Origin: Aquabacterium sp.
GTDB lineage: Bacteria > Pseudomonadota > Gammaproteobacteria > Burkholderiales > Burkholderiaceae_C
Direction: 5' to 3'
Assembly (NCBI RefSeq): GCF_021768455.1
Contig: NZ_JAIZVX010000016.1
Coordinates: 1-40,730 of the forward strand
DNA length: 40,730 nt
Shown piece by piece: positions 6,341 to 29,145 of this stretch (the first letter of the stretch is position 1; each line of letters starts with the position of its first letter). Below the pieces are notes generated by a model. It did no database searches. It worked only from the letters and a program-made list of their open reading frames with translations, and had not been told where the DNA came from. A program made the position numbers and the translations under genes.

Positions 6341-7840
6341 TCAGGCGTGAGCGTGCTCGTGACCATGACCCTGGTCGTGACCGTGGCCACCACCGCCCTG
6401 CCCTTCGGCCTTGACCGGCTTCACGAAGGGATCGGCCTGCAGCATGCCGGCATCGACCTCGTCCCACGGTGCGGGGATGCGCACCTGCTGCCACACCGGG
6501 TTGTAGAGTGCCTTGTCGATCTCTTCGACCAGTTCCACCATGCCCTCGTAGCCACCGTAGGCGTGGTGGCGTTCCTGGTTGATGTCCAGCCAGGGCATGC
6601 GGGCCTTGAGCGCGATGAACTGCGAGCGGCCGCCCGAGAGCATGATGTCGGCCTTGGCGTCGCGCAGCATGGCGTACATCTCGCGCGGCGTCATGTCGTC
6701 GATCATGTGGGCGTCGTCGCCCATGATCTCCTTGATCTTTTCCTTGTCTTCCTTGGTGGACTTCTTCACCGAGGTGCCGACGATCTCCATGCCCACTTCC
6801 TGCAGGGCCGAGACCACCGACCAGCTCTTCACGCCGCCGGTGATCAGCAGCACGCGCTTGCCCTTGAGGCGCTCCTTGTACTTCTCCAGCCGCTTCCAGG
6901 CGCGGGCCTCTTCTACCTCGATCAGGCGCTCGGTGCGGTCGATCAGGTCGGCGCCGGCGCCCTGCTTCACCAGCAGGCGCGCGATCTGGCGCAGGGTGTC
7001 GCTCATGTCGCCGATGCCGTAGAAAGAGCCCTCGAAGTACGGGATCCCCCAGTTCTTCTCCATGCGCGTGGCGATGTTGATCATCGACTTGCTGCACACC
7101 ATCATGTTGACCTTGGCGCGGTGGCTGCTGGCCACCTCGTGGTAGCGACCGTCGCCCGAGATGCAACTCAGGATGCGCACGCCCAGGGCATCGAGCAAGG
7201 GCTTGATCTGCCAGAGCTCACCCGACAGGTTGTACTCGCCGATGATGTTGATGTCGTAAGGCGTCGTGTATTCGGGCTCTTCGGTGCCGATGACGTAGTC
7301 CAGGATGGACTCGCCGCCCAGCTTGTTGCCCAGGTTCTTGGGGCCGGCAAAGCCCGGGCTGTTGACGGGGATCACCGGCTTGCCGAACTTCTCCGAAGCC
7401 TTCTTGCACACCGCTTCGATGTCGTCTCCGATCAGCGCCGTGACACAGGTCTGGTAGACGAAAACCGCCGGCGGGTTGTACTTCTCGATGATCTCCCGGA
7501 CCGACTTGAACAGGCGCTTCTCGCCGCCATAGACGACGTCGAGCTCGTTGATGTCGGTGGTGAAGCCCGTGCGGTAGAGCTGCGAGCCAGACGAGGCGCT
7601 GTGCCGGTTGTCCCAGCTGTTGCCCTCGCAGGCGATGGGGCCGTGCACCAGATGGGCCACGTCCACGATGGGCTGCAGCGCGATCTTGGCGCCGTCGAAG
7701 GCGCAGCCCCCGGCAGCGGCGCCGGGCGACAGCTGCTTGGTGCAGCCCTTCTTGCGTTCCTTCTCGCTCTTGCCCTGGTTCTTGTCGCAACCAGGTTCGT
7801 CAAAGACTTCGGCAATCTTCTGTTTGAGCGATGCGGCCAT
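6341..7840 (-). CDS. nifE: FeMo cofactor scaffold subunit NifE with a His-rich tail
   Basis: Alpha-like subunit of NifEN. The 499-residue protein has the family features GGCAFDGAK (C46), GPIACEGNSWDNR (C71) and YQTCVTALIGDD (C132), corresponding to the P-cluster-type ligands of NifD. The last 20 residues are unusual: a Gly/His-rich tail (GHGHDQGHGHEHAHA) with seven histidines, reminiscent of metal-binding tails on nickel chaperones and absent from textbook NifE. CGGAG lies 7 bp before the ATG. First gene of the cofactor operon; a sigma-54 promoter and an IHF site lie 34-80 bp upstream. Confidence 0.95.
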   Translation of the reverse strand: MAASLKQKIAEVFDEPGCDKNQGKSEKERKKGCTKQLSPGAAAGGCAFDGAKIALQPIVDVAHLVHGPIACEGNSWDNRHSASSGSQLYRTGFTTDINELDVVYGGEKRLFKSVREIIEKYNPPAVFVYQTCVTALIGDDIEAVCKKASEKFGKPVIPVNSPGFAGPKNLGNKLGGESILDYVIGTEEPEYTTPYDINIIGEYNLSGELWQIKPLLDALGVRILSCISGDGRYHEVASSHRAKVNMMVCSKSMINIATRMEKNWGIPYFEGSFYGIGDMSDTLRQIARLLVKQGAGADLIDRTERLIEVEEARAWKRLEKYKERLKGKRVLLITGGVKSWSVVSALQEVGMEIVGTSVKKSTKEDKEKIKEIMGDDAHMIDDMTPREMYAMLRDAKADIMLSGGRSQFIALKARMPWLDINQERHHAYGGYEGMVELVEEIDKALYNPVWQQVRIPAPWDEVDAGMLQADPFVKPVKAEGQGGGGHGHDQGHGHEHAHA

Positions 7841-8001: not shown

Positions 8002-10584
8002 TCAGGGCGTCGGCACCACGCCGTCGGCACAGCGCTGAGCCAGATGGGCCAGGGCCTCTTCAACCTGGTCGACCAGGACCAGGCAGAGGTCACCAGGCTG
8101 CAAGCGCGACAAGGCGGTGTCGATGGCGATGAACTCGCCCCGGATCTCGTCCACACGCTGCACACGCTGGGCCTTGCTCAGGCCTTCGCGCAACAGGGCC
8201 AGCACCTCGCCGTCCTCGCGGCCACGCTGGCAGGCGTCCTGGAAGAGGATCAGGTCATCGAAGGCCTCACCCAGGATGGCGGTCTGCTCGCGGATGTCTT
8301 CGTCGCGGCGGTCGCCCGCGCCACTGATCACCACCGAGCGGCGCTTGCCCGGCAGCGCGTTCACGGCCGACACGAGGGCGCGCATGGCATCGGGGTTGTG
8401 GCCGTAGTCGGCGATCACGGTGGCCCCGCGGAAGTCCATCACATTGAAGCGGCCGGGGGCGTTGTCGGCGTCGTTCACGAAACTGGCCAGGCCGTTGCGG
8501 ATGCTGTCCCAGTCCAGGCCCGAACTCCAGGCTGCGCCCACCGCGGCCATGACGTTGTCGACCTGGAAGCCGATGCTGCCACCGCGGGTGATGGGGATGT
8601 CGCGCAGAGGCAGGGTTTCGCGCCAGCTGCCTTCGCACACCACGATGGCGTCGCCATCGACCGAGATGGTGCGCTTGCCCTGCGCACGGTGGGCCGTGAG
8701 CACGGGGTTGTGCGAATCGGCCGCGAAGAAAATGACACCGCCAGGGCACTTGGGCGCCATGGCCACCACGATCGGATCGGTGGCATTGAGCACGGCGTAG
8801 CCCGTGGGCGCCACGTTCATGACGATCACGCGCTTGAGCACGGCCAGGTCTTCGACGGTGGTGATGTAGTTCAGGCCCAGGTGGTCACCGGCGCCGATGT
8901 TGGTCACCACCGCGGTCTGGCATCGGTCGTAACCCAGGCCTTCACGCAGGATGCCGCCACGGGCGGTCTCGAAGACGGCCGCATCCACATCGGGGTGCAT
9001 CAGCACGTTGCGGGCGCTCTTGGGGCCGGAGCAGTCGCCACTGTCGATCTGGCGGCCGTTCACGTAGACGCCATCGGTGTTGGTCATGCCCACGCGCAGG
9101 CCACTGGTGGCCAGCAGGTGCGCGGTCAGGCGGGCGGTGGTGGTCTTGCCGTTGGTGCCGGTCACGGCCACCACGGGGATGCGACCATCGTCACCCGGCT
9201 TGTAGAGGTTGGCCACCATGGCCTCACCCACGTTGCGGCCCTTGCCGAAGGACGGCGAGAGGTGCATGCGCAGGCCGGGCGCGGCGTTGACTTCGACGAT
9301 GCCACCGTTCTGCTCTTCGAGGGGCTTGTGCACGCTCTCGGCCAGCACATCGACCCCGCAGATCTCCAGGCCAATGCACTGGGCCGCGGCGATCGCACGG
9401 GCGGCCACCTCGGGGTGAACGTCGTCGGTCACATCGGTGGCGGTGCCGCCGGTGGAGAGGTTGGCGTTGTTGCGCAGGATGACGCGGCGGCCCTTTTCGG
9501 GCACGGAACTCGGCTCCAGACCCTGCACTTCCAGGCGCGCGATGGCGATGTCGTCGAAACGGATCTTGGTGAGCGAGGTGGCGTGGCCTTCGCCACGGCG
9601 CGGGTCGGCGTTGACCTTGTCGACCAGTTCGCGCACGGTGTGCACGCCGTCACCGATCACGTGCGGGGGATCGCGGCGGGCGGCAGCCACCAGCTTGTCG
9701 CCCACCACCAGCAGGCGGAAATCGTTGCCTGGCAGGTATTTTTCAACCATGACCTGGCCGATTTCGGCCGCGGCCTTGTAGGCAATGGCCAGGTGCTCGC
9801 GGCTGACGATGTTGACCGTCACCCCCTTGCCCTGGTTGCCGTCCTGGGGCTTGCAGACCACGGGCAGGCCGATCTCCTGGGCCACGACCCAGGCGTCGTC
9901 CACGTCCGTCACCGGGCGGCCGATGGGCACAGGCACGCCAGCGGCGGCCAGCAGGCGCTTGGTGAGGTCCTTGTCCTGCGCGATGGACTCGGCCACGGCA
10001 CTGGTGGTGTCGACCTCGGCGGCCCAGATGCGGCGCTGCTTGGCACCCCAGCCGAACTGCACCAGGCTGCCCTGGGTCAGGCGGCGCCAGGGGATGCCGC
10101 GCGCGGCAGCAGCGGTCACGATGGAACCGGTGCTCGGGCCCAGGCGGACGTCTTCATCGAGCTCGCGCAAGGCGGCCAGCGAGGCCTCGACATCGAAGCT
10201 GCCGTCGTTCAAGGCCGCATCGACGAGGGCGCGGGCCTGCTCGAACGCCAGCTTGCCCACGGCCTCTTCGCTGTACTCGACGACCACCTGGTAGATGCCG
10301 GCTTCCACCGTGGCCGCGGTGCGGCTGAAGGTGACCGGGCAACCGGCCTGGGCCTGCAGGGCCAGGGTGGCGGCCTCCAGCACATGGGCCAGCGAGATCT
10401 GCCCCGGGCGACCATCCGGGCGCAGCGGGCCCAGGGTGGGGAAGAGTTTGCGCAGGCGCACCTCGAAGCCATCGAGCAGGCTGAGCTCGCGCTCGGCCGG
10501 CTCGCAGGCCACCACGGCTTCGATCGCCGTGTGGCGGCTCCAGAGGTTGGGACCACGCAGGGCCCGGATACGGGAAACGTCCAT
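8002..10584 (-). CDS. cphA: Cyanophycin synthetase CphA
   Basis: Enzyme that polymerises aspartate and arginine into cyanophycin, a nitrogen store, using ATP. The 860-residue length and layout match the family: an N-terminal domain starting RIRALRGPNLWSRHTAIE, an ATP-grasp domain (about residues 190-440, with LPVVCKPQDGNQGKGVTVN and VEKYLPGNDFRLLVVG), and a Mur-ligase-like domain with intact P-loop GTNGKTT at residues 476-482, plus a full C-terminal domain (VIADYGHNPDAMRALV). The ATG at 10584 gives the usual N-terminus; the ribosome site is modest. It lies 55 bp downstream of cphA' and should be co-transcribed with it. Both ATP sites look functional. Confidence 0.95.
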   Translation of the reverse strand: MDVSRIRALRGPNLWSRHTAIEAVVACEPAERELSLLDGFEVRLRKLFPTLGPLRPDGRPGQISLAHVLEAATLALQAQAGCPVTFSRTAATVEAGIYQVVVEYSEEAVGKLAFEQARALVDAALNDGSFDVEASLAALRELDEDVRLGPSTGSIVTAAAARGIPWRRLTQGSLVQFGWGAKQRRIWAAEVDTTSAVAESIAQDKDLTKRLLAAAGVPVPIGRPVTDVDDAWVVAQEIGLPVVCKPQDGNQGKGVTVNIVSREHLAIAYKAAAEIGQVMVEKYLPGNDFRLLVVGDKLVAAARRDPPHVIGDGVHTVRELVDKVNADPRRGEGHATSLTKIRFDDIAIARLEVQGLEPSSVPEKGRRVILRNNANLSTGGTATDVTDDVHPEVAARAIAAAQCIGLEICGVDVLAESVHKPLEEQNGGIVEVNAAPGLRMHLSPSFGKGRNVGEAMVANLYKPGDDGRIPVVAVTGTNGKTTTARLTAHLLATSGLRVGMTNTDGVYVNGRQIDSGDCSGPKSARNVLMHPDVDAAVFETARGGILREGLGYDRCQTAVVTNIGAGDHLGLNYITTVEDLAVLKRVIVMNVAPTGYAVLNATDPIVVAMAPKCPGGVIFFAADSHNPVLTAHRAQGKRTISVDGDAIVVCEGSWRETLPLRDIPITRGGSIGFQVDNVMAAVGAAWSSGLDWDSIRNGLASFVNDADNAPGRFNVMDFRGATVIADYGHNPDAMRALVSAVNALPGKRRSVVISGAGDRRDEDIREQTAILGEAFDDLILFQDACQRGREDGEVLALLREGLSKAQRVQRVDEIRGEFIAIDTALSRLQPGDLCLVLVDQVEEALAHLAQRCADGVVPTP

Positions 10585-10639
10585 CAGCCTATCTCTCTCA
10601 ATGCTTTGCTCAAAGCGTATCGGTGCGCCAGCCAGGGGC

Positions 10640-12859
10640 TCAGCGCGCAGCGCGCGGTGCGGGGTCGTAGGTTTCCAGACCGGCGGCAATCAGCTCGGGC
10701 GAAATGCCCAGGGCCCAGGCCGCGGCCACGGCGGCCAGCAGGTAACGCACGGTGGCGCCCGGCACCGACTGGTCGGCGCCACCGGCCACCATGCGGCGGG
10801 CGGCGTGGCCATTCAGGTCGGCACAGCGAACCGGGCTGTGCCCGTTGTGGCTCAGCAGCACGTGGTGGCCGTCCACCGACACCGTGCGACCGCCCTTCTC
10901 GCGATGGGCCACCAGGACGGGGTTCTCGTGGTCCAGGTCATAGAAGATCACGTCGCCATCGCACAACTCGGCCATCTCGACCAGTCGCTCGTCGGCGGCG
11001 TTCAGCACGGCCACGCCATCGGGCAGGACCACGTCCACCTGGGTGCGCAGCACCTTGAACATCTGCCCAGCCTCGTGGATGTCGTGCTCGGCCAGGGCCG
11101 GTGCCACGGGGGCTTCGGAACCCAGCAGATCCGTCACCACGCCCACGGCGCAGCGGTCGTAGGCCAGGCCATCATTGAGGATGCTGGCGGCGCTGTTTTC
11201 GAGCACCACGGCATTGACCTCGCGGTTCATCAGCAGGCGCTGACCCGAGGCCCAGTTGGCGCGGTCGCCCGCTTCCACCTTGCGGCTGCCCAGGAAAAGG
11301 CCTTCGCGGCAGGCCAGGCCCACGTGGCGGCCACTGAGGTGCAGCAGCCAGGCCGTGAGGCGGGCGATGTTGGCCGTGCCCTGCGAACCCGCGACCCCGA
11401 TGATCGGGATGCGGCCGGACTCGTCTTCGGCAAACAGGTTGTCGACGATGGCCTTGCCCACCGGACGCGGCAGGCCCTCGGCCGGCTTGAGGTGCATCAG
11501 CAGGCCCGGGCCGGCGTTGACCTCGACCACGGCGCCGCGCTGCGGGCCCAGCGGCTTGGAGATGTCTTCCACCACCAGGTCGATGCCGGCAATGTCCAGG
11601 CCCACCACGCGGGCGGCCAGCGAGGCGGCAAAGGCCACGTCGGGGTGGACATCGTCGGTGCAGTCGATGGCCACGTTGCCATTGCGCTGCACCAGCACGC
11701 GCTGGCCGTCGGCCGGCACGGAATCGCCATTCAGGCCCTGGCGCTCCAGCAGCAGGCGCATGGCGGGCTCGCGCTCCAGCACGATGGTCTCGAGCGGGAA
11801 TTCCTCGGCCTCGCCACGGCGGGGATCCGAGTTGAGCTGGCTGTCGATCAGCTGGACCACGGTGTCGCGGCCATTGCCGGTGATGTGCAGGCTTTCGCCA
11901 CGCGCCGCCGCCACGACCTTGCCGCCAACCACCAGCACGCGGTGCTCGTCGCCCGGGATGAAGCGCTCGACGATGACCTCGCTGCCCTCCTGTTCCGCGA
12001 TGCGGTAGGCGGCTTCAATGTCTTCGCGGGTGCTCAGTTCCAGCGACACCCCCCGGCCATGGTTGCCGTCCAGCGGCTTGACCACCACCGGCAGGCCGAT
12101 GTCCTCGGCCGCATCCCAGGCGGCTTCGGGGCTGTCGACCACCTCGCCCTCGGGCACGGGCACGCCGCAAGACTTGAGCAAGGTCTTGGTCAGGTCCTTG
12201 TTGCCGGCGATGCCTTCAGCGATGGCGCTGGTGCGCTCGGTCTCGGCCGTCCAGATGCGACGCTGGGCGCTGCCATGGCCCAACTGGACGAGGTTGCCAT
12301 CGTTCAGGCGGATGTGGGGGATGCCCCGGTCGGTGGCGGCGCCCACGATGGCCGCGGTGGAGGGGCCCAGGTAGCAGTCGTCGATCTGGGTGCGGATGGC
12401 GTCGACCGCCGCTTTCACGTCGAAGGGCGTGTCGTTGATCGCGGCCATGATCAGGGCGTGGCCCTGTTGCAGCGCCACACGCGCCACCTGTTCGTCACGC
12501 GCACGGAACACCATGCGGTAGACGCCGGGCTGGCTGGTGGAGCGCGTCTGGCCAAAGCCCGTGGCCATGCCGGCCAGGTTCAGCAGCTCGATGACGATGT
12601 GCTCCAGCACATGGCCGGCCCAGGTGCCTTCCTGCAGGCGGGCCAGGAAACCACCCCGCTCGCCAACACCGCAGTGGTGTTCGATCAGGGCTGGCAGCCA
12701 GGCTGTGAGGCGTTCATTGAAGCCCGGGAGCAGGTTGGAGGGGAAAGCTTCCAGCTCACCCAGGTCCAGCCAGACTTCCAGCACCGGACGGTAGGTCCAG
12801 ATGTTCGGGCCACGGAGGTAATTGATGCGCTGCAGCGCGATGTCGTTCTTTTGGGTCAT
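10640..12859 (-). CDS. cphA': Second cyanophycin synthetase-like protein CphA'
   Basis: A 739-residue paralogue of CphA. The N-terminal domain (RINYLRGPNIWTYRPVLEVWLD) and ATP-grasp domain (LPVVVKPLDGNHGRGVSLEL, VERFIPGDEHRVLVVGG) look intact. In the Mur-ligase-like part the P-loop is changed to GSQGTAN (residues 491-497), with Thr at the position of the catalytic lysine, and the protein ends without the C-terminal Mur domain that CphA has. So one of the two ligase reactions should be lost. Known CphA2 proteins of cyanobacteria have a similarly reduced C-terminal half and polymerise beta-Asp-Arg dipeptides; a like role, or a helper role beside CphA, is an inference. The ATG at 12859 has only a weak ribosome site. 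Confidence 0.9.
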   Translation of the reverse strand: MTQKNDIALQRINYLRGPNIWTYRPVLEVWLDLGELEAFPSNLLPGFNERLTAWLPALIEHHCGVGERGGFLARLQEGTWAGHVLEHIVIELLNLAGMATGFGQTRSTSQPGVYRMVFRARDEQVARVALQQGHALIMAAINDTPFDVKAAVDAIRTQIDDCYLGPSTAAIVGAATDRGIPHIRLNDGNLVQLGHGSAQRRIWTAETERTSAIAEGIAGNKDLTKTLLKSCGVPVPEGEVVDSPEAAWDAAEDIGLPVVVKPLDGNHGRGVSLELSTREDIEAAYRIAEQEGSEVIVERFIPGDEHRVLVVGGKVVAAARGESLHITGNGRDTVVQLIDSQLNSDPRRGEAEEFPLETIVLEREPAMRLLLERQGLNGDSVPADGQRVLVQRNGNVAIDCTDDVHPDVAFAASLAARVVGLDIAGIDLVVEDISKPLGPQRGAVVEVNAGPGLLMHLKPAEGLPRPVGKAIVDNLFAEDESGRIPIIGVAGSQGTANIARLTAWLLHLSGRHVGLACREGLFLGSRKVEAGDRANWASGQRLLMNREVNAVVLENSAASILNDGLAYDRCAVGVVTDLLGSEAPVAPALAEHDIHEAGQMFKVLRTQVDVVLPDGVAVLNAADERLVEMAELCDGDVIFYDLDHENPVLVAHREKGGRTVSVDGHHVLLSHNGHSPVRCADLNGHAARRMVAGGADQSVPGATVRYLLAAVAAAWALGISPELIAAGLETYDPAPRAAR

Positions 12860-12996
12860 GTCCAGCTTGATTACTGCGCCCGGTCGGACCAGCTGGTGAA
12901 AAGCGAGAACGCGATTGTGAGGCCGGCATCGGTCAAAATGCCACACCTTGCACCAGGGGTCGCGGAGTCGAGACCCAGCCGGGCCATACCATCACC

Positions 12997-21056: not shown

Positions 21057-22148
<1,092 letters not shown>

Positions 22149-22166: not shown

Positions 22167-22182
22167 TGTGGGAAAGGTGACA
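22167..22182. promoter_or_regulatory. NifA binding site (UAS) between nifH and the divergent gene
   Basis: TGTGGGAAAGGTGACA is an exact TGT-N10-ACA site. It lies about 80 bp upstream of the nifH -24 element and about 115 bp upstream of the plus-strand sigma-54 element, so it can serve both. Confidence 0.85.
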
Positions 22183-22297: not shown

Positions 22298-22313
22298 TGG
22301 TATGGGGATTGCA
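22298..22313 (+). promoter_or_regulatory. Sigma-54 promoter of the unknown gene divergent from nifH
   Basis: TGGTATGGGGATTGCA has GG-N10-GC spacing and TTGC at -12, a good match to the consensus with T for C at one -24 position. Transcription would start about 45 bases before the ATG at 22369. Confidence 0.75.
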
Positions 22314-22368
22314 GAAATGGGCTCACGCGTGCGCGCACGTTCCACCCCTGTCACCCAAGGACTTCACC

Positions 22369-22977
22369 ATGACCGTCACACTGGACAAAACCACCATCGA
22401 CCAGACCGCCTTTGCGGCTCTCGATGCCGCCAAACGTCTCCAGAACCCGGTGCTGAAAGCACCCACGCACAAGCCGGGTCGCTTCGGTTTCCGCGGTGAA
22501 CTGGCGCTGCGCTTTTCACAGCAGATGGCCGACGAGGCTCGCCCTCCCGAGCTGACCTGTGACCAGGTCATGGCCATCGCCCAGGCCGGCGAAACCACCA
22601 TCCCCTTCTTCACCGGCTACCTGCTCTCCTTCGAACACCTGAAGGATGTGGCCGAGGCCTTGGGCAGCACCCTGACCGCTGGTGGCAAGTACTTCCTGTT
22701 CTGCAACAACATGGACATCAGCAAGAAGTACCAGGTGCCCTTCAAGGGCGCGATGTTCTATGTGCTGCCGATCGACGAGGCGACGGTCTACAACGAACTG
22801 CTCGATCTGCTCTACCTGGAGAAGAACGAACTCAAGAAGCTCGACACGGCCGCCAAGCTCGATGCCATCGCCGATGCGGCCATGAAATTCGACGTGACCT
22901 TCGACATGATCACGTACAGCGAAGGGCTGGAGCTGATGGGCCCGGTGCGCAACCCGAACGAGAACCGTCCGGTCTGA
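22369..22977 (+). CDS. Unknown protein under apparent NifA/sigma-54 control
   Basis: A 202-residue soluble protein that I do not recognise. It has no signal peptide or membrane segment and three scattered cysteines at most. It opens with MTVTLDKTTIDQTAFAALDAAKRLQ; the middle contains FTGYLLSFEHLKDVAEALGSTL and GGKYFLFCNNMDISKKYQVPFKGAMFYVLP, and the end is helical with paired Lys/Leu (YLEKNELKKLDTAAKLDAIADAAMKF). The ATG at 22369 follows a plain AAGGA site about 8 bp upstream. The clear sigma-54 promoter and the NifA site shared with nifH imply expression together with nitrogenase. Candidate roles are nitrogenase protection or regulation, but no motif supports one over another. Confidence 0.85.
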   Translation: MTVTLDKTTIDQTAFAALDAAKRLQNPVLKAPTHKPGRFGFRGELALRFSQQMADEARPPELTCDQVMAIAQAGETTIPFFTGYLLSFEHLKDVAEALGSTLTAGGKYFLFCNNMDISKKYQVPFKGAMFYVLPIDEATVYNELLDLLYLEKNELKKLDTAAKLDAIADAAMKFDVTFDMITYSEGLELMGPVRNPNENRPV

Positions 22978-23212: not shown

Positions 23213-23902
23213 ATGACTTTCGCCTCCCCGCTGATCCGATCCCTGGTTGTCTCTGCTGGCCTGGTCGTCGCCAGTGCCACGGCTTCGGCCGCCGGCCTGA
23301 CCATCCCCGCGGCCGGCATCCAGGCCAACTCGGTGCTCGACTTCTCCGACGACGCGCTGAAGTCCTTCAACCTGCGCTTCATCAGCGTATCCATCGAGGC
23401 CAAGGGCAACGCCACGGTGCTCGACAAGACGCTGGGCACCTACAACATGCCGATCACCAGCATCTCGGTGAGCTCCTCGCTGAAGGTGGCCGGGGGCCAG
23501 GCCAGCGGCTCGGCCTTGCTGATCACCCGCGCCAACGACGATGACGTGACCGTTGGCATGACCCTGGCCAACTTCACCATCAATTACGAGACCAAGCAGG
23601 TGCTGGCCGACGCCACCCCGCTGCATGGCGCCACCGTCCCGCAGATGCCGCTGTACAACTTCAACGTGGCCACGCCGCTGGCCCTGAAGTACAAGTTCCC
23701 CCTGACCATCACCGGTCACGAGGTGCTGGACAAGCTCTTCCTGACGCCGGAAGCCAAGGCCTTCTTCATGTCCTCGCTGGAACTGCCCGCTGTGGCCACC
23801 GGCCTGCTGGACACGACCGATTTCGGCACCCTGACCCAGGACATCAGCACCAAGGCCCGCAAGCCGGCCGTGCCGACCGCAGCCTACGTGCCCGCACCCT
23901 GA
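23213..23902 (+). CDS. Secreted protein of unknown function, paralogue 1
   Basis: A 229-residue protein with a Sec signal peptide: a short start, hydrophobic LIRSLVVSAGLVVASATA and a cleavage site near ASAAG (about residue 26). The mature part is beta-rich with alternating hydrophobic residues and no cysteines, and ends with TDFGTLTQDISTKARKP and a Pro/Ala tail. It is clearly homologous to the next gene, with the last 110 residues about three-quarters identical (shared INYETKQVLAD and KYKFPLTITGHEVLD). A strong ACAGGAG site precedes the ATG. I know no named family; secretion to the periplasm or surface is the only supported statement. Confidence 0.85.
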   Translation: MTFASPLIRSLVVSAGLVVASATASAAGLTIPAAGIQANSVLDFSDDALKSFNLRFISVSIEAKGNATVLDKTLGTYNMPITSISVSSSLKVAGGQASGSALLITRANDDDVTVGMTLANFTINYETKQVLADATPLHGATVPQMPLYNFNVATPLALKYKFPLTITGHEVLDKLFLTPEAKAFFMSSLELPAVATGLLDTTDFGTLTQDISTKARKPAVPTAAYVPAP

Positions 23903-24127: not shown

Positions 24128-24811
24128 ATGCTGTCGATGTCCTTCCGTTCGTTTGCCGTCTCTGCCGCCCTGGTGGCCGCTTCCGCTTCGGCCACCGCCA
24201 CCGGTCTGACCATCCCCGTCAACGCCCTCACTGCGGACTCGGTGCAGGCCTTCTCCGACGCTGCCCTGAAGTCCTTCGCCCTGAAGTTCATCGGCGTGAC
24301 CGTCACCCCCAAGGGCACGGCCACCGCCTCGGCCAGCACCACGGGCGCCTATGTGCTGCCCATCACCCACATCACGCTGAAGGGCCTGAAGATCGCCAGC
24401 GGCCAGGCCCGTGGCGCCGCCCTGGTCATCAGCCGTGAAAACGACGATGGCGAGGTCGTGGGCTTCACCCTGGCCAACTTCTCCATCAACTACGAGACCA
24501 AGCAGGTGCTGGCCGACACCACCCCGCTGGGCAGCACCGTGACCGTGCCGCAGCTGCCGCTGTACAACTACAACGCCCTGGCACCCCTGGCCCTGAAGTA
24601 CAAGTTCCCGCTGACCATCACCGGTCACGAAGTGCTCGACCAGCTCTTCCTGACACCCGAAGCCAAGGCCGTGTTCATGGATTCGCTGCAATTGCCGGCC
24701 GTGGCCATCGGCCTGCTGAACACGACCGACTTCGGCACCCTGACCCAGGACATCAGCACCAAGTTCCGCAAGACCCCGGTGCCGAACAAGCTCTACGTTC
24801 CTGCGCCCTGA
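24128..24811 (+). CDS. Secreted protein of unknown function, paralogue 2
   Basis: A 227-residue paralogue of the preceding gene, also with a signal peptide (FRSFAVSAALVAASASATAT, cleavage near residue 25). Similarity runs over the whole length and is strongest in the second half, where long DNA stretches are nearly identical, showing a tandem duplication. Main differences are in the first 100 residues of the mature part. AGGAG lies 6 bp before the ATG at 24128; an ATG three codons later is also possible. No cysteines and no known motif. The pair sits inside the nif island on the opposite strand, so a link to nitrogen fixation is unproven. Confidence 0.85.
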   Translation: MLSMSFRSFAVSAALVAASASATATGLTIPVNALTADSVQAFSDAALKSFALKFIGVTVTPKGTATASASTTGAYVLPITHITLKGLKIASGQARGAALVISRENDDGEVVGFTLANFSINYETKQVLADTTPLGSTVTVPQLPLYNYNALAPLALKYKFPLTITGHEVLDQLFLTPEAKAVFMDSLQLPAVAIGLLNTTDFGTLTQDISTKFRKTPVPNKLYVPAP

Positions 24812-26732: not shown

Positions 26733-27608
26733 TCAAGCCGCGGTGATCAGCCCGGCCACGTCGGCCAAAGGCATGGGGATGCGCGTGACGTTGTATTCGT
26801 CCAGGAAGCGCTGCTCCATGCGGGTGGGCTCTTCGGGCAGCACGGCCCAATGGCGATCGCTGGAGCGCTTCATGATCTGGCGCGCGAAAGTGCGGGTGAG
26901 CTGGTCGTTGAACCGGCACCCCAGGAAAAGGAAACTGCGCCCCTCGCGGATGCGCTGCACGTCCATCGGGATCGGGGTCTGGATGTCGATCTCGGTCAGG
27001 ACCTCGACGTAGTCGGTATCGGACACCAGGTAGTTGCCCGCCGGCTGGTGACCACCAATGGGGCGGTAGACCAGCGAAGCCCACGAGGCAGGCAAAGCCG
27101 CATCGGTGACCAGTTGGCTCTGTGCGTCGTAGAAGGCCGTCCAGGTGCCGAAGTGTTCGGACTGCGACAGGCCCTGCACCTGGCCCCAGTCGCCCTGGGG
27201 GCGAACCTGGGCGTAAGCGGCGGTCAGGGTGTCGTCGTACCAGCTCTCGACCACCATGGGTGGCGCCACCTTGGCGAGCCAGAGGTGCAGCGGGCTGGGT
27301 GTGGGCGTGGCAGCAAAGGCCTCGTTCATCAGTTGCACCACGCTCTTGCGGTGCTTGAAGTTTTCGATGAACTGGGCGGCCTGCGTCAGGCGGTTGCGGA
27401 TCTTGTGCGGCACGGTGGCCTTGGCCGTGAGCTGGCCAACCAGCACCTCGGGTGAGGCCGGCACGGGCAGATCAGGGATCAGGCTGAGCACGCCCGGGCC
27501 AAGGTAAGGCAGCACGCGGCCTTCCTTGAGGCCGGTGATCAGGCCCTGGATGTCGGCCAGCACGTCTTGCGACTGTGCAACGGCTTCGGGAGAGGCGACG
27601 TCGGTCAT
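26733..27608 (-). CDS. SIR2-like domain protein
   Basis: A 291-residue protein resembling the SIR2_2 group of Rossmann-fold proteins. Three segments fit: an N-terminal nucleotide-binding loop VLPYLGPGVLSL (about residues 32-43), a central VYRPIGGHQPAGNYLVSDTDYVEVL (the usual Leu-His-Gly ... Asp-Tyr region, with His replaced by Gly-Gly-His), and FLFLGCRFNDQLTRTF (the usual GYSxxD region). The catalytic histidine position is uncertain, so NAD hydrolase or deacetylase activity cannot be assumed. AAGGA precedes the ATG. It follows the DegT-like gene by 45 bp and precedes the ferredoxin. SIR2-like proteins also occur in anti-phage systems, but nothing else of that kind is seen here. Confidence 0.75.
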   Translation of the reverse strand: MTDVASPEAVAQSQDVLADIQGLITGLKEGRVLPYLGPGVLSLIPDLPVPASPEVLVGQLTAKATVPHKIRNRLTQAAQFIENFKHRKSVVQLMNEAFAATPTPSPLHLWLAKVAPPMVVESWYDDTLTAAYAQVRPQGDWGQVQGLSQSEHFGTWTAFYDAQSQLVTDAALPASWASLVYRPIGGHQPAGNYLVSDTDYVEVLTEIDIQTPIPMDVQRIREGRSFLFLGCRFNDQLTRTFARQIMKRSSDRHWAVLPEEPTRMEQRFLDEYNVTRIPMPLADVAGLITAA

Positions 27609-27653: not shown

Positions 27654-28814
27654 TCAGTAGATGGCTGCGCCCGCACCCACGTTGACGGAGGCGTCCTTCA
27701 GCGTCTTGACGATGAAGTGCACCTCGTCTTCATCGAGGTGGACGTGGAATGGGAGGGCCAGGGAACGGTCACCGATGCGCTCGGTGTTGGGCAGCTGGCC
27801 ATTGCCACGCTTGTGGCCCATGGCCTGGTAGTGGAACTGCTGGTTCAGGGGCAGGCAGTAGGCCGCGGTCTCGACGGCGTTGCTGTCCATGTCCTCGATG
27901 ATCTGGTTGCGGGCGCTGGCGGTGAAGCGTTTGCCCAGGTGGATCTTGTAGACCATCCAGTGCACCTCGTCGACATCGTCGGCCAGGTAAGGTGGCTTGA
28001 TGCCCTCGAAGCTCTGCATCTCGGCCGTGTACCAGGCTTCCACCTTCTTGCGCTTGGCCAGGATCTCGTCGATGCGCTGCAGTTGGGCCAGGCCCACGGC
28101 CGCGTCCAGTTCGCCCATGGTGGCGCCCCAGGGCACGCGGCTGCCCACGGACACCGAGGCGCGGTCGCTGACCTTGCGTTCGCGCAGGTAGGCCACTTCG
28201 CTGGCCACCTTGGGGCTGTTCGTGACGACCATGGCCCCCTGACCACAACACAGGGCCGAAGGCTGGCTGAAGTCGAAGATGGCGACGTCACCGAAGCTGC
28301 CCACCATCTGGCCCTGGTAGCGCGATCCGATGGCTTCGGTGCTGTCTTCGATCAGCACGAGGTTGTGCTGGTCGGCCAGGGCGCGCAGGGCCTGCCAGTT
28401 GGCCGGATGGCCGTTGACGTTGGAGGCCAGGATGGCGCGGGTGCGCGGCCCGATCTTGCTGGCCGCCTGGGTGGGCTCCAGACAGCCCGACCAGTAATCG
28501 ATGTCGGCCAGAACGGGCGTGGCACCCACCAGGGAGATGCCATGCGCGATCTGGTGCCAGGCATAGCCCGTGGTGATGACTTCGTCACCCGGGCCAATGT
28601 CCAGCGCCTTGAGCGTGAGCGCCATGCCCTGGATGCCGCTGTTGAGGGCGACCGCATGCGGCCGGCCCAGCCAGATGGCAAAGGCCTGCTCGAAGGACTC
28701 GACCATGACCCCGGACGACAGCTGGGTGCTGCGCAGGGTCATGACCACGTTCTCCAGTTCGGCCGGGGTGATGTCCGGGTCGGACAGGGTGATCAGGTCG
28801 ACTTCTTCTTCCAT
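27654..28814 (-). CDS. DegT/DnrJ-family protein lacking the PLP lysine
   Basis: A 386-residue fold-type I protein of the DegT/DnrJ/EryC1/StrS family. Typical parts are LSSGVMVESFEQAFAIWLG, HAVALNSG, LDIGPGDEVITTGYAW and LIEDSTEAIGSRYQG (the Asp that binds the pyridine ring, about residue 157). Where the family has the Schiff-base lysine (FSFHxxK...GEGG), this protein has FDFSQPSALCCGQGAMV (residues 180-196), with Ser or Pro at the lysine position and Gln for the Glu. It is therefore unlikely to be a normal aminotransferase. The ATG at 28814 has AAGGTG upstream. It sits between the small gene after nifT and the SIR2-like gene. Confidence 0.85.
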   Translation of the reverse strand: MEEEVDLITLSDPDITPAELENVVMTLRSTQLSSGVMVESFEQAFAIWLGRPHAVALNSGIQGMALTLKALDIGPGDEVITTGYAWHQIAHGISLVGATPVLADIDYWSGCLEPTQAASKIGPRTRAILASNVNGHPANWQALRALADQHNLVLIEDSTEAIGSRYQGQMVGSFGDVAIFDFSQPSALCCGQGAMVVTNSPKVASEVAYLRERKVSDRASVSVGSRVPWGATMGELDAAVGLAQLQRIDEILAKRKKVEAWYTAEMQSFEGIKPPYLADDVDEVHWMVYKIHLGKRFTASARNQIIEDMDSNAVETAAYCLPLNQQFHYQAMGHKRGNGQLPNTERIGDRSLALPFHVHLDEDEVHFIVKTLKDASVNVGAGAAIY

Positions 28815-28869
28815 GGGGCACCTTTTGATCGCTGGGTTGGAACGTGGGGAGGACGAGGGCGGTGCAGGC

Positions 28870-29145
28870 TCAGCCCTGGGTGAGCACAAGGGCCGAGGCC
28901 TGGAGCGGGTCACGCGTGACCGTCCAACAATGGCCATCGGTGCTCATCATGTAGAGCGCCCGCTCGGGGCCCTGGGTGGTCGGCACGTGGACGGCGGGCT
29001 TTTCCCCACGCATGTCGAAGGCATCGAGCACCAGCGTCTTGAGCGGCGAGAGGCGCTCGCGCAAGGTGACCGCGGCGGCGCGCACGGTCTCGGCCTGGGA
29101 CACGATCTGGGCGGCCTGGGTGAGTTGTTCGGCGGTGATGGCCAT
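28870..29145 (-). CDS. Small unknown nif-cluster protein, 91 residues (possibly DUF6129-like)
   Basis: A short protein starting MAITAEQLTQAAQIVSQAETVRAAAVTLRERL, helical at first, then a strand-rich end with LYMMSTDGHCWTVTRDPLQASALVL. This layout recalls the DUF6129 proteins found near nifT and nifZ in other clusters, which I offer with low confidence. GGGAG lies 8 bp before the ATG at 29145. It is 38 bp after nifT and 55 bp before the DegT-like gene, so it is in the same operon. Confidence 0.65.
   Translation of the reverse strand: MAITAEQLTQAAQIVSQAETVRAAAVTLRERLSPLKTLVLDAFDMRGEKPAVHVPTTQGPERALYMMSTDGHCWTVTRDPLQASALVLTQG

Follow-up and report, generated by a model that had tools for sequence, protein, structure and literature searches.

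OrfX, a probable nitrogen-fixation accessory protein without a named family, encoded divergently from nifH

The nifH–OrfX locus and its paired promoters

The window is the whole 40,730-bp stretch of Aquabacterium sp. DNA that was analysed. It carries nifHDK on the minus strand. An open reading frame of 202 codons, here called OrfX, faces away from nifH across a gap of 430 bp (Table 1). The frame begins with ATG and ends in a stop codon. A GTG at 22168 would start a longer frame, but it was not favoured, as the family aligns from the methionine at 22369. In the first alignment, this start region is occupied by residues in 15 of the 16 rows. Two genes that are related to each other lie 3′ of OrfX on the plus strand (23213–23902 and 24128–24811); their starts resemble signal peptides, and Pfam gave no match for either. 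We rejected these secreted-protein genes as operon partners: among the loci compared, a relative outside the window was seen only at locus L002.

Table 1. Features of the nifH–OrfX region, in window positions
Feature	Position	Strand	Remark
OrfX	22369..22977	+	202 aa; soluble acidic protein, pI ~5.0; nif-linked family without a name
AAGGA, likely ribosome-binding site of OrfX	22357..22361	+	read from the sequence
OrfX -24/-12 (sigma-54) element TGGTATGGGGATTGCA	22298..22313	+	0 mismatches
NifA upstream activator site TGT-N10-ACA, TGTGGGAAAGGTGACA	22167..22182		between the OrfX and nifH promoters
nifH -24/-12 element TGGCACGGCAGTTGCG	22071..22086	-	1 mismatch
nifH, divergent neighbour of OrfX	21057..21938	-	

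An earlier, sequence-only reading of the window had placed a −24/−12 element 56–71 bp before the OrfX ATG, and had described a single exact NifA site in the gap, lying between the two promoters. Both are present as described. The OrfX element is the sole zero-mismatch match to TGGYRYR-N4-TTGCW in the window; at one mismatch or fewer there are 13 matches, against a shuffle mean of 6.2. The NifA site is separated from the OrfX element by 115 bp and from the nifH element by 80 bp. A perfect −24/−12 element with a NifA site 115 bp upstream is what is expected of a member of the NifA/sigma-54 regulon. Taken alone, the NifA site of the window proves nothing, because exact TGT-N10-ACA occurs three times in the window, below the chance expectation of 5.1.

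The chance explanation for the OrfX promoter is removed by the conservation of the paired promoter across gaps. We compared 85 distinct nifH–OrfX gaps (101 loci tried, less 12 duplicates and 4 without nifH) with 20 rounds of dinucleotide shuffling. With the pattern TGGYDYR-N4-TTGCD, which was settled after sites had been seen, a sigma-54 element facing OrfX or globin–OrfX is present in 82 of the 85 gaps (shuffles average 0.7). An exact NifA site is present in 83 of the 85 (shuffles average 8.85). The two occur together, 60–200 bp apart (median 93), in 80/85 gaps, compared with 0.0 in the shuffles. The corresponding nifH-facing pair, scored with a looser pattern, is found in 83/85. Among the 85 gaps, no strict sigma-54 element was found at L081, L153 and L155, and no exact NifA site at L122 and L140 (P. 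phymatum).

The window genome holds a 60% paralogue of OrfX on another contig, C283. There, a truncated haemoglobin gene is followed by the OrfX paralogue and then by nitroreductase, rhodanese, ankyrin and ArsC-like genes (locus L022, 8538–12938). This cassette has an exact NifA site at L022:8538 and, as judged by eye, a one-mismatch sigma-54 element, AGGTACAACAGTTGCG, approximately 110 bp beyond it. No nif gene was seen in the 15 kb examined around the cassette.

Occurrence with nitrogenase and gene neighbourhood

In the genus of the window (42 genomes), nifH is above the cut-off in 16 genomes. OrfX is found in the same 16 and in none of the other 26. For the other samples, a genome was scored as nifD-positive at E up to 1e-120. 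The 146 genomes of a Bradyrhizobium-like genus include 97 with OrfX, 98 with nifD and 96 with both, so that OrfX occurs in 96/98 nifD-positive genomes versus 1/48 nifD-negative ones. Two genomes of this genus have nifD without OrfX (G840 and G865). G849 alone has OrfX without detected nifD; its relative is full-length, with 36% identity, and lies on a 10-kb contig without a nif gene in an assembly that is 89% complete. In a class sample of 369 genomes, the family is present in 11/32 nifD-positive versus 0/337 nifD-negative genomes. An order sample of 165 genomes gave 21 matches, of which 19 are full-length and all of these fall among the 26 nifD-positive genomes (0/139 nifD-negative genomes have a full-length match). 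In one genome of this sample, G991, the match is short and falls within a long frame that is unrelated. In another, G996, which has no detected nifD, a broken remnant lies next to a globin gene and looks like decay following the loss of nif. In a phylum sample searched with a narrower alignment, OrfX was found in 11/398 genomes. Fisher P values for the association with nitrogenase range from 6e-12 to 1e-34, for genomes that are non-independent and samples that overlap. The OrfX remnant of G996 (L186, ~6430–7334) adjoins a truncated haemoglobin gene that looks intact.

OrfX is nevertheless dispensable for nitrogen fixation in general, because 21/32 nifD-positive genomes of the class sample and 7/26 of the order sample are without a detectable copy. 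Homologues widespread away from nif genes, the outcome that the sequence-only reading had named as contrary to it, were not seen. Among nifD-negative genomes there are only the full-length gene of G849 and the remnant of G996. Among ten relatives from the class sample, four (L154, L156, L160 and L162) lack a clear nif gene within ~9 kb, but their genomes bear nifD.

These four loci and G849 would suit a gene that is regulated by NifA, has some other function at low oxygen or low nitrogen, and simply travels with nif islands. The correlation seen between the OrfX and NifD trees is what such co-travel would produce. However, OrfX is kept almost without exception by the nifD-positive genomes of the Bradyrhizobium-like genus, is lost or broken where nif is absent, and survives rearrangement to differing nif neighbours. 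We therefore consider a mere passenger improbable.

How often the gene stands beside nifH, a survey that the sequence-only reading had proposed, was counted among the best 80 of 221 relatives, which are Burkholderiales-type or named only to phylum, class or family. In 76 of the 80 loci nifH is present and always divergent from OrfX. In the remaining four, the contig extends just 29 to 2334 bp ahead of OrfX. A group II truncated haemoglobin gene lies between nifH and OrfX, directly upstream of OrfX and in the same direction, in 46/80 loci. Farther along the OrfX strand there are zinc-ribbon (63/80), ArsC-like (45/80) and rhodanese (24/80) genes, and ankyrin genes too.

The haemoglobin is a frequent operon neighbour, though a protein unrelated to OrfX. 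OrfX could load, reduce or anchor it, and the globin would then buffer O2 or NO. A globin gene also stands by OrfX in Methylococcus and beside the 60% paralogue of the window genome. However, 34 of the 80 loci and the window have no globin gene at that place. On trees of 71 loci, which were chosen for having OrfX, the globin gene is gained or lost at least 14 times, whereas the promoter and OrfX are constant. Since OrfX also has no redox ligand, a dedicated globin partner seems quite unlikely. Because the gene is absent from 30 of the 76 gaps with nifH and from the window, and switches so often, any link of OrfX to oxygen is not obligate.

Other members of the family have other nif neighbours. 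OrfX is divergent from iscN-nifU-nifS on two Bradyrhizobium plasmids and at L135, L137 and L174–L176, and distant forms lie near nifB, NifO-like ArsC and NifQ at L129, L132 and L133. Most members of the distant branch were seen in nif clusters (L023, L024, L129, L131–L133 and L157–L159). Such neighbours suit a protein that acts beside NifU/NifS/IscN, NifB or NifQ in delivering Fe-S clusters or FeMo-cofactor just as well as they suit protection of nitrogenase. Nevertheless, the partner in Burkholderiales is nifH and not the assembly genes, OrfX has no conserved metal ligand, and many nifD-positive genomes do without it. A role in maturation is thus conceivable, though we think it rather unlikely.

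Two of these loci have further features. L175 (7265–14022, genome G879) carries OrfX twice, in tandem blocks; both copies are divergent from a stretch like iscN-nifU/nifS, and one copy is apparently fragmentary. At L129 (5050–9170), the distant OrfX relative adjoins genes for a DraG-type ADP-ribosylglycohydrolase, an isochorismatase-type protein, nicotinate phosphoribosyltransferase and Fe-S biosynthesis.

Sequence conservation and predicted fold

The sequence-only reading recognised no family for the protein, and the searches agree with this. Pfam gave 0 families for 16/16 members at E up to 10. NCBIfam gave nothing above the cut-off for 45 members, and searches of PHROGs, PADLOC and PDB sequences likewise gave nothing above the cut-off. 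There was no globin match. Two weak leads were rejected as identities of OrfX: CofG (0.14) and DUF7684 (0.04, in one distant protein); DUF7684 had no match in 80 genomes, but none in the controls either, so that this comparison does not bear on the lead. All ten plasmid-borne relatives are "hypothetical protein" in public annotation, and in the papers and libraries covered by the searches the protein is indeed undescribed. The distant branch has 19–23% identity and was joined to the family by profile comparison (probability 98.9, E 4e-17, 169 columns).

Structure prediction, which had also been proposed, gave two confident models. The AlphaFold model of OrfX, from 39 sequences, has a pLDDT of 90.4 and a pTM of 0.88. 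That of a distant form, from 13 sequences, has a pLDDT of 91.6 and a pTM of 0.87. Both have the same order of elements: a helix, four strands, a helix, three strands, and three or four helices. Foldseek against the PDB listed no significant match, with 0/305 (OrfX) and 0/730 (distant form) listed matches at E ≤0.001. The best E values are 0.072 and 0.0061, and TM is at most 0.36 among the rows examined. McrC chains recur in both searches, at TM 0.26–0.36, which is too low for an assignment. No fold match was found among viral structure models.

R42, G43, N114 and K156 do not vary among 45 sequences. No histidine or tryptophan is conserved, and C64 and C112 are lost in the distant group. The lack of a conserved histidine and of retained cysteines speaks against a role that involves a metal or redox chemistry; the conserved Cys/His ligands of a redox carrier are not present. 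The C-terminal tail ENRPV (E198–V202) is invariant in the 38 core rows. The blocks of the tail have mean pLDDT values of 64 and 51, the lowest of the model. A tail that is conserved and yet not folded in the model suggests a docking peptide. The median dN/dS of 0.14 over 66 pairs indicates purifying selection.

NifW, CowN, NafY and FeSII-type proteins form a class of proteins that protect or stabilise nitrogenase. OrfX resembles them in being small, accessory, coexpressed with NifA-regulated or nif genes, and present in part of the diazotrophs. It differs in having no Pfam or NCBIfam match and no Fe-S ligands. The NifW, CowN, NafY-NifX and ferredoxin families are presumably modelled in these two libraries, and no profile match to them was found for 16 members in Pfam and 45 in NCBIfam. 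Given no match there, OrfX lies outside the families modelled in Pfam and NCBIfam. OrfX is most aptly described as a new family of a known kind, the nif accessory protein.

Published expression of orthologues and proposed role

Paraburkholderia phymatum STM815 has two OrfX copies (199/202 identical), each divergent from a nifH copy. These are orthologues of the window protein: Bphy_7807 is identical to it at 127/202 positions and Bphy_7752 at 62.9%. In nifA-mutant nodules the tabulated values are −11.54 for Bphy_7752 and −11.11 for Bphy_7807, the largest finite falls in a table of 142 genes of the symbiotic plasmid pBPHY02 (PMC8305402). The same table gives −7.40 for nifH and −10.05 for nifD, and enters as NA 11 genes without reads in the nifA mutant. 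The main text of that paper names Bphy_7752 once, in its expression table. In the rpoN study PMC5979394, Bphy_7752 does not appear in the main text, whose tables are selections. Among the open-licence papers found, OrfX orthologues occur only as table rows, and the two P. phymatum genes appear just in one expression table, under the name "hypothetical protein".

In Bradyrhizobium diazoefficiens, bll1754 is flanked by iscN (blr1755) and a Rieske-like gene (blr1753); OrfX of Bradyrhizobium sp. BWA-3-5 has the same position and orientation. The gene bll1754 was assigned as the counterpart of OrfX by synteny and locus tags alone. Its transcript changes by log2 −4.8 in nifA-mutant nodules, and no value is given for the nifH mutant (PMC4926349). 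Its protein is up by log2 6.2 at 0.5% O2 and its transcript is up 120.9-fold in bacteroids (PMC6515984). In the table of that paper, bll1754 is marked as outside the NifA+RpoN1 targets. Separately, Azoarcus azo0536, in a nif cluster, is listed with NifA and RpoN sites.

The co-expression with nitrogenase that the sequence-only reading had implied is supported by the paired promoters, by the occurrence of OrfX with nifD and nifH, and by the published NifA dependence of Bphy_7752 and Bphy_7807. This extreme dependence would be unusual in a protein that itself tunes NifA. Such a regulator, or one that switches off nitrogenase post-translationally, could be suspected from the response-regulator genes that adjoin OrfX in Methylococcus and at L153, L157, L189 and L023, and from the DraG-type and NAD-salvage genes beside the distant form at L129. 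However, the DraG neighbourhood occurs at one locus only, and no DNA-binding or catalytic domain was found in OrfX in the Pfam and NCBIfam searches. A regulatory role is therefore improbable.

OrfX is very probably a nif accessory protein that is coexpressed through NifA. NifA bound between nifH and OrfX would fire both promoters, so that OrfX would be made in step with nitrogenase. Its C-terminal tail may dock on the nitrogenase system, that is, on the Fe protein, the MoFe protein or a partner. The bound protein would then stabilise or shield nitrogenase at low but non-zero oxygen, and would be neither an electron carrier nor a core cofactor-assembly enzyme. The truncated haemoglobin, rhodanese, ArsC-like and ankyrin neighbours may belong to the same protective module. 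We put forward protection or stabilisation of nitrogenase tentatively, with somewhat less than even confidence. Microoxic induction, globin and sulfur/redox neighbours, the lack of ligands, and a patchy, nitrogenase-bound distribution are all consistent with it. A narrower form of this proposal is unlikely to hold in every part. It makes OrfX a stoichiometric guard, with a fold unlike solved structures, which docks by its tail on the Fe or MoFe protein. Such a guard, often together with a dedicated haemoglobin, would allow proteobacteria of aerobic or microaerobic habit, beta- and alpha-rhizobia among them, to operate nitrogenase close to oxygen.

It thus appears that a conserved protein which assists nitrogen fixation has been overlooked. 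Accessory parts of nitrogenase are a bottleneck in moving nitrogen fixation to new hosts, and OrfX would be a missing part in the working nif gene list of Burkholderiales and Bradyrhizobium-like groups.

The nif region of the window contains other genes of interest. Two adjoining cyanophycin-synthetase-like genes lie on the minus strand between nifE and nifK, inside the nif cluster (8002–12946), with the Pfam domains Cyanophycin_syn, RimK and Mur ligase. Their position suggests that fixed nitrogen may be stored as cyanophycin. Genes for a SIR2-like protein (SIR2_2) and for an aminotransferase of the DegT family, also on the minus strand, lie at 26733–27608 and 27654–28937, and a SIR2-type and aminotransferase-type pair that resembles them is found at L065.
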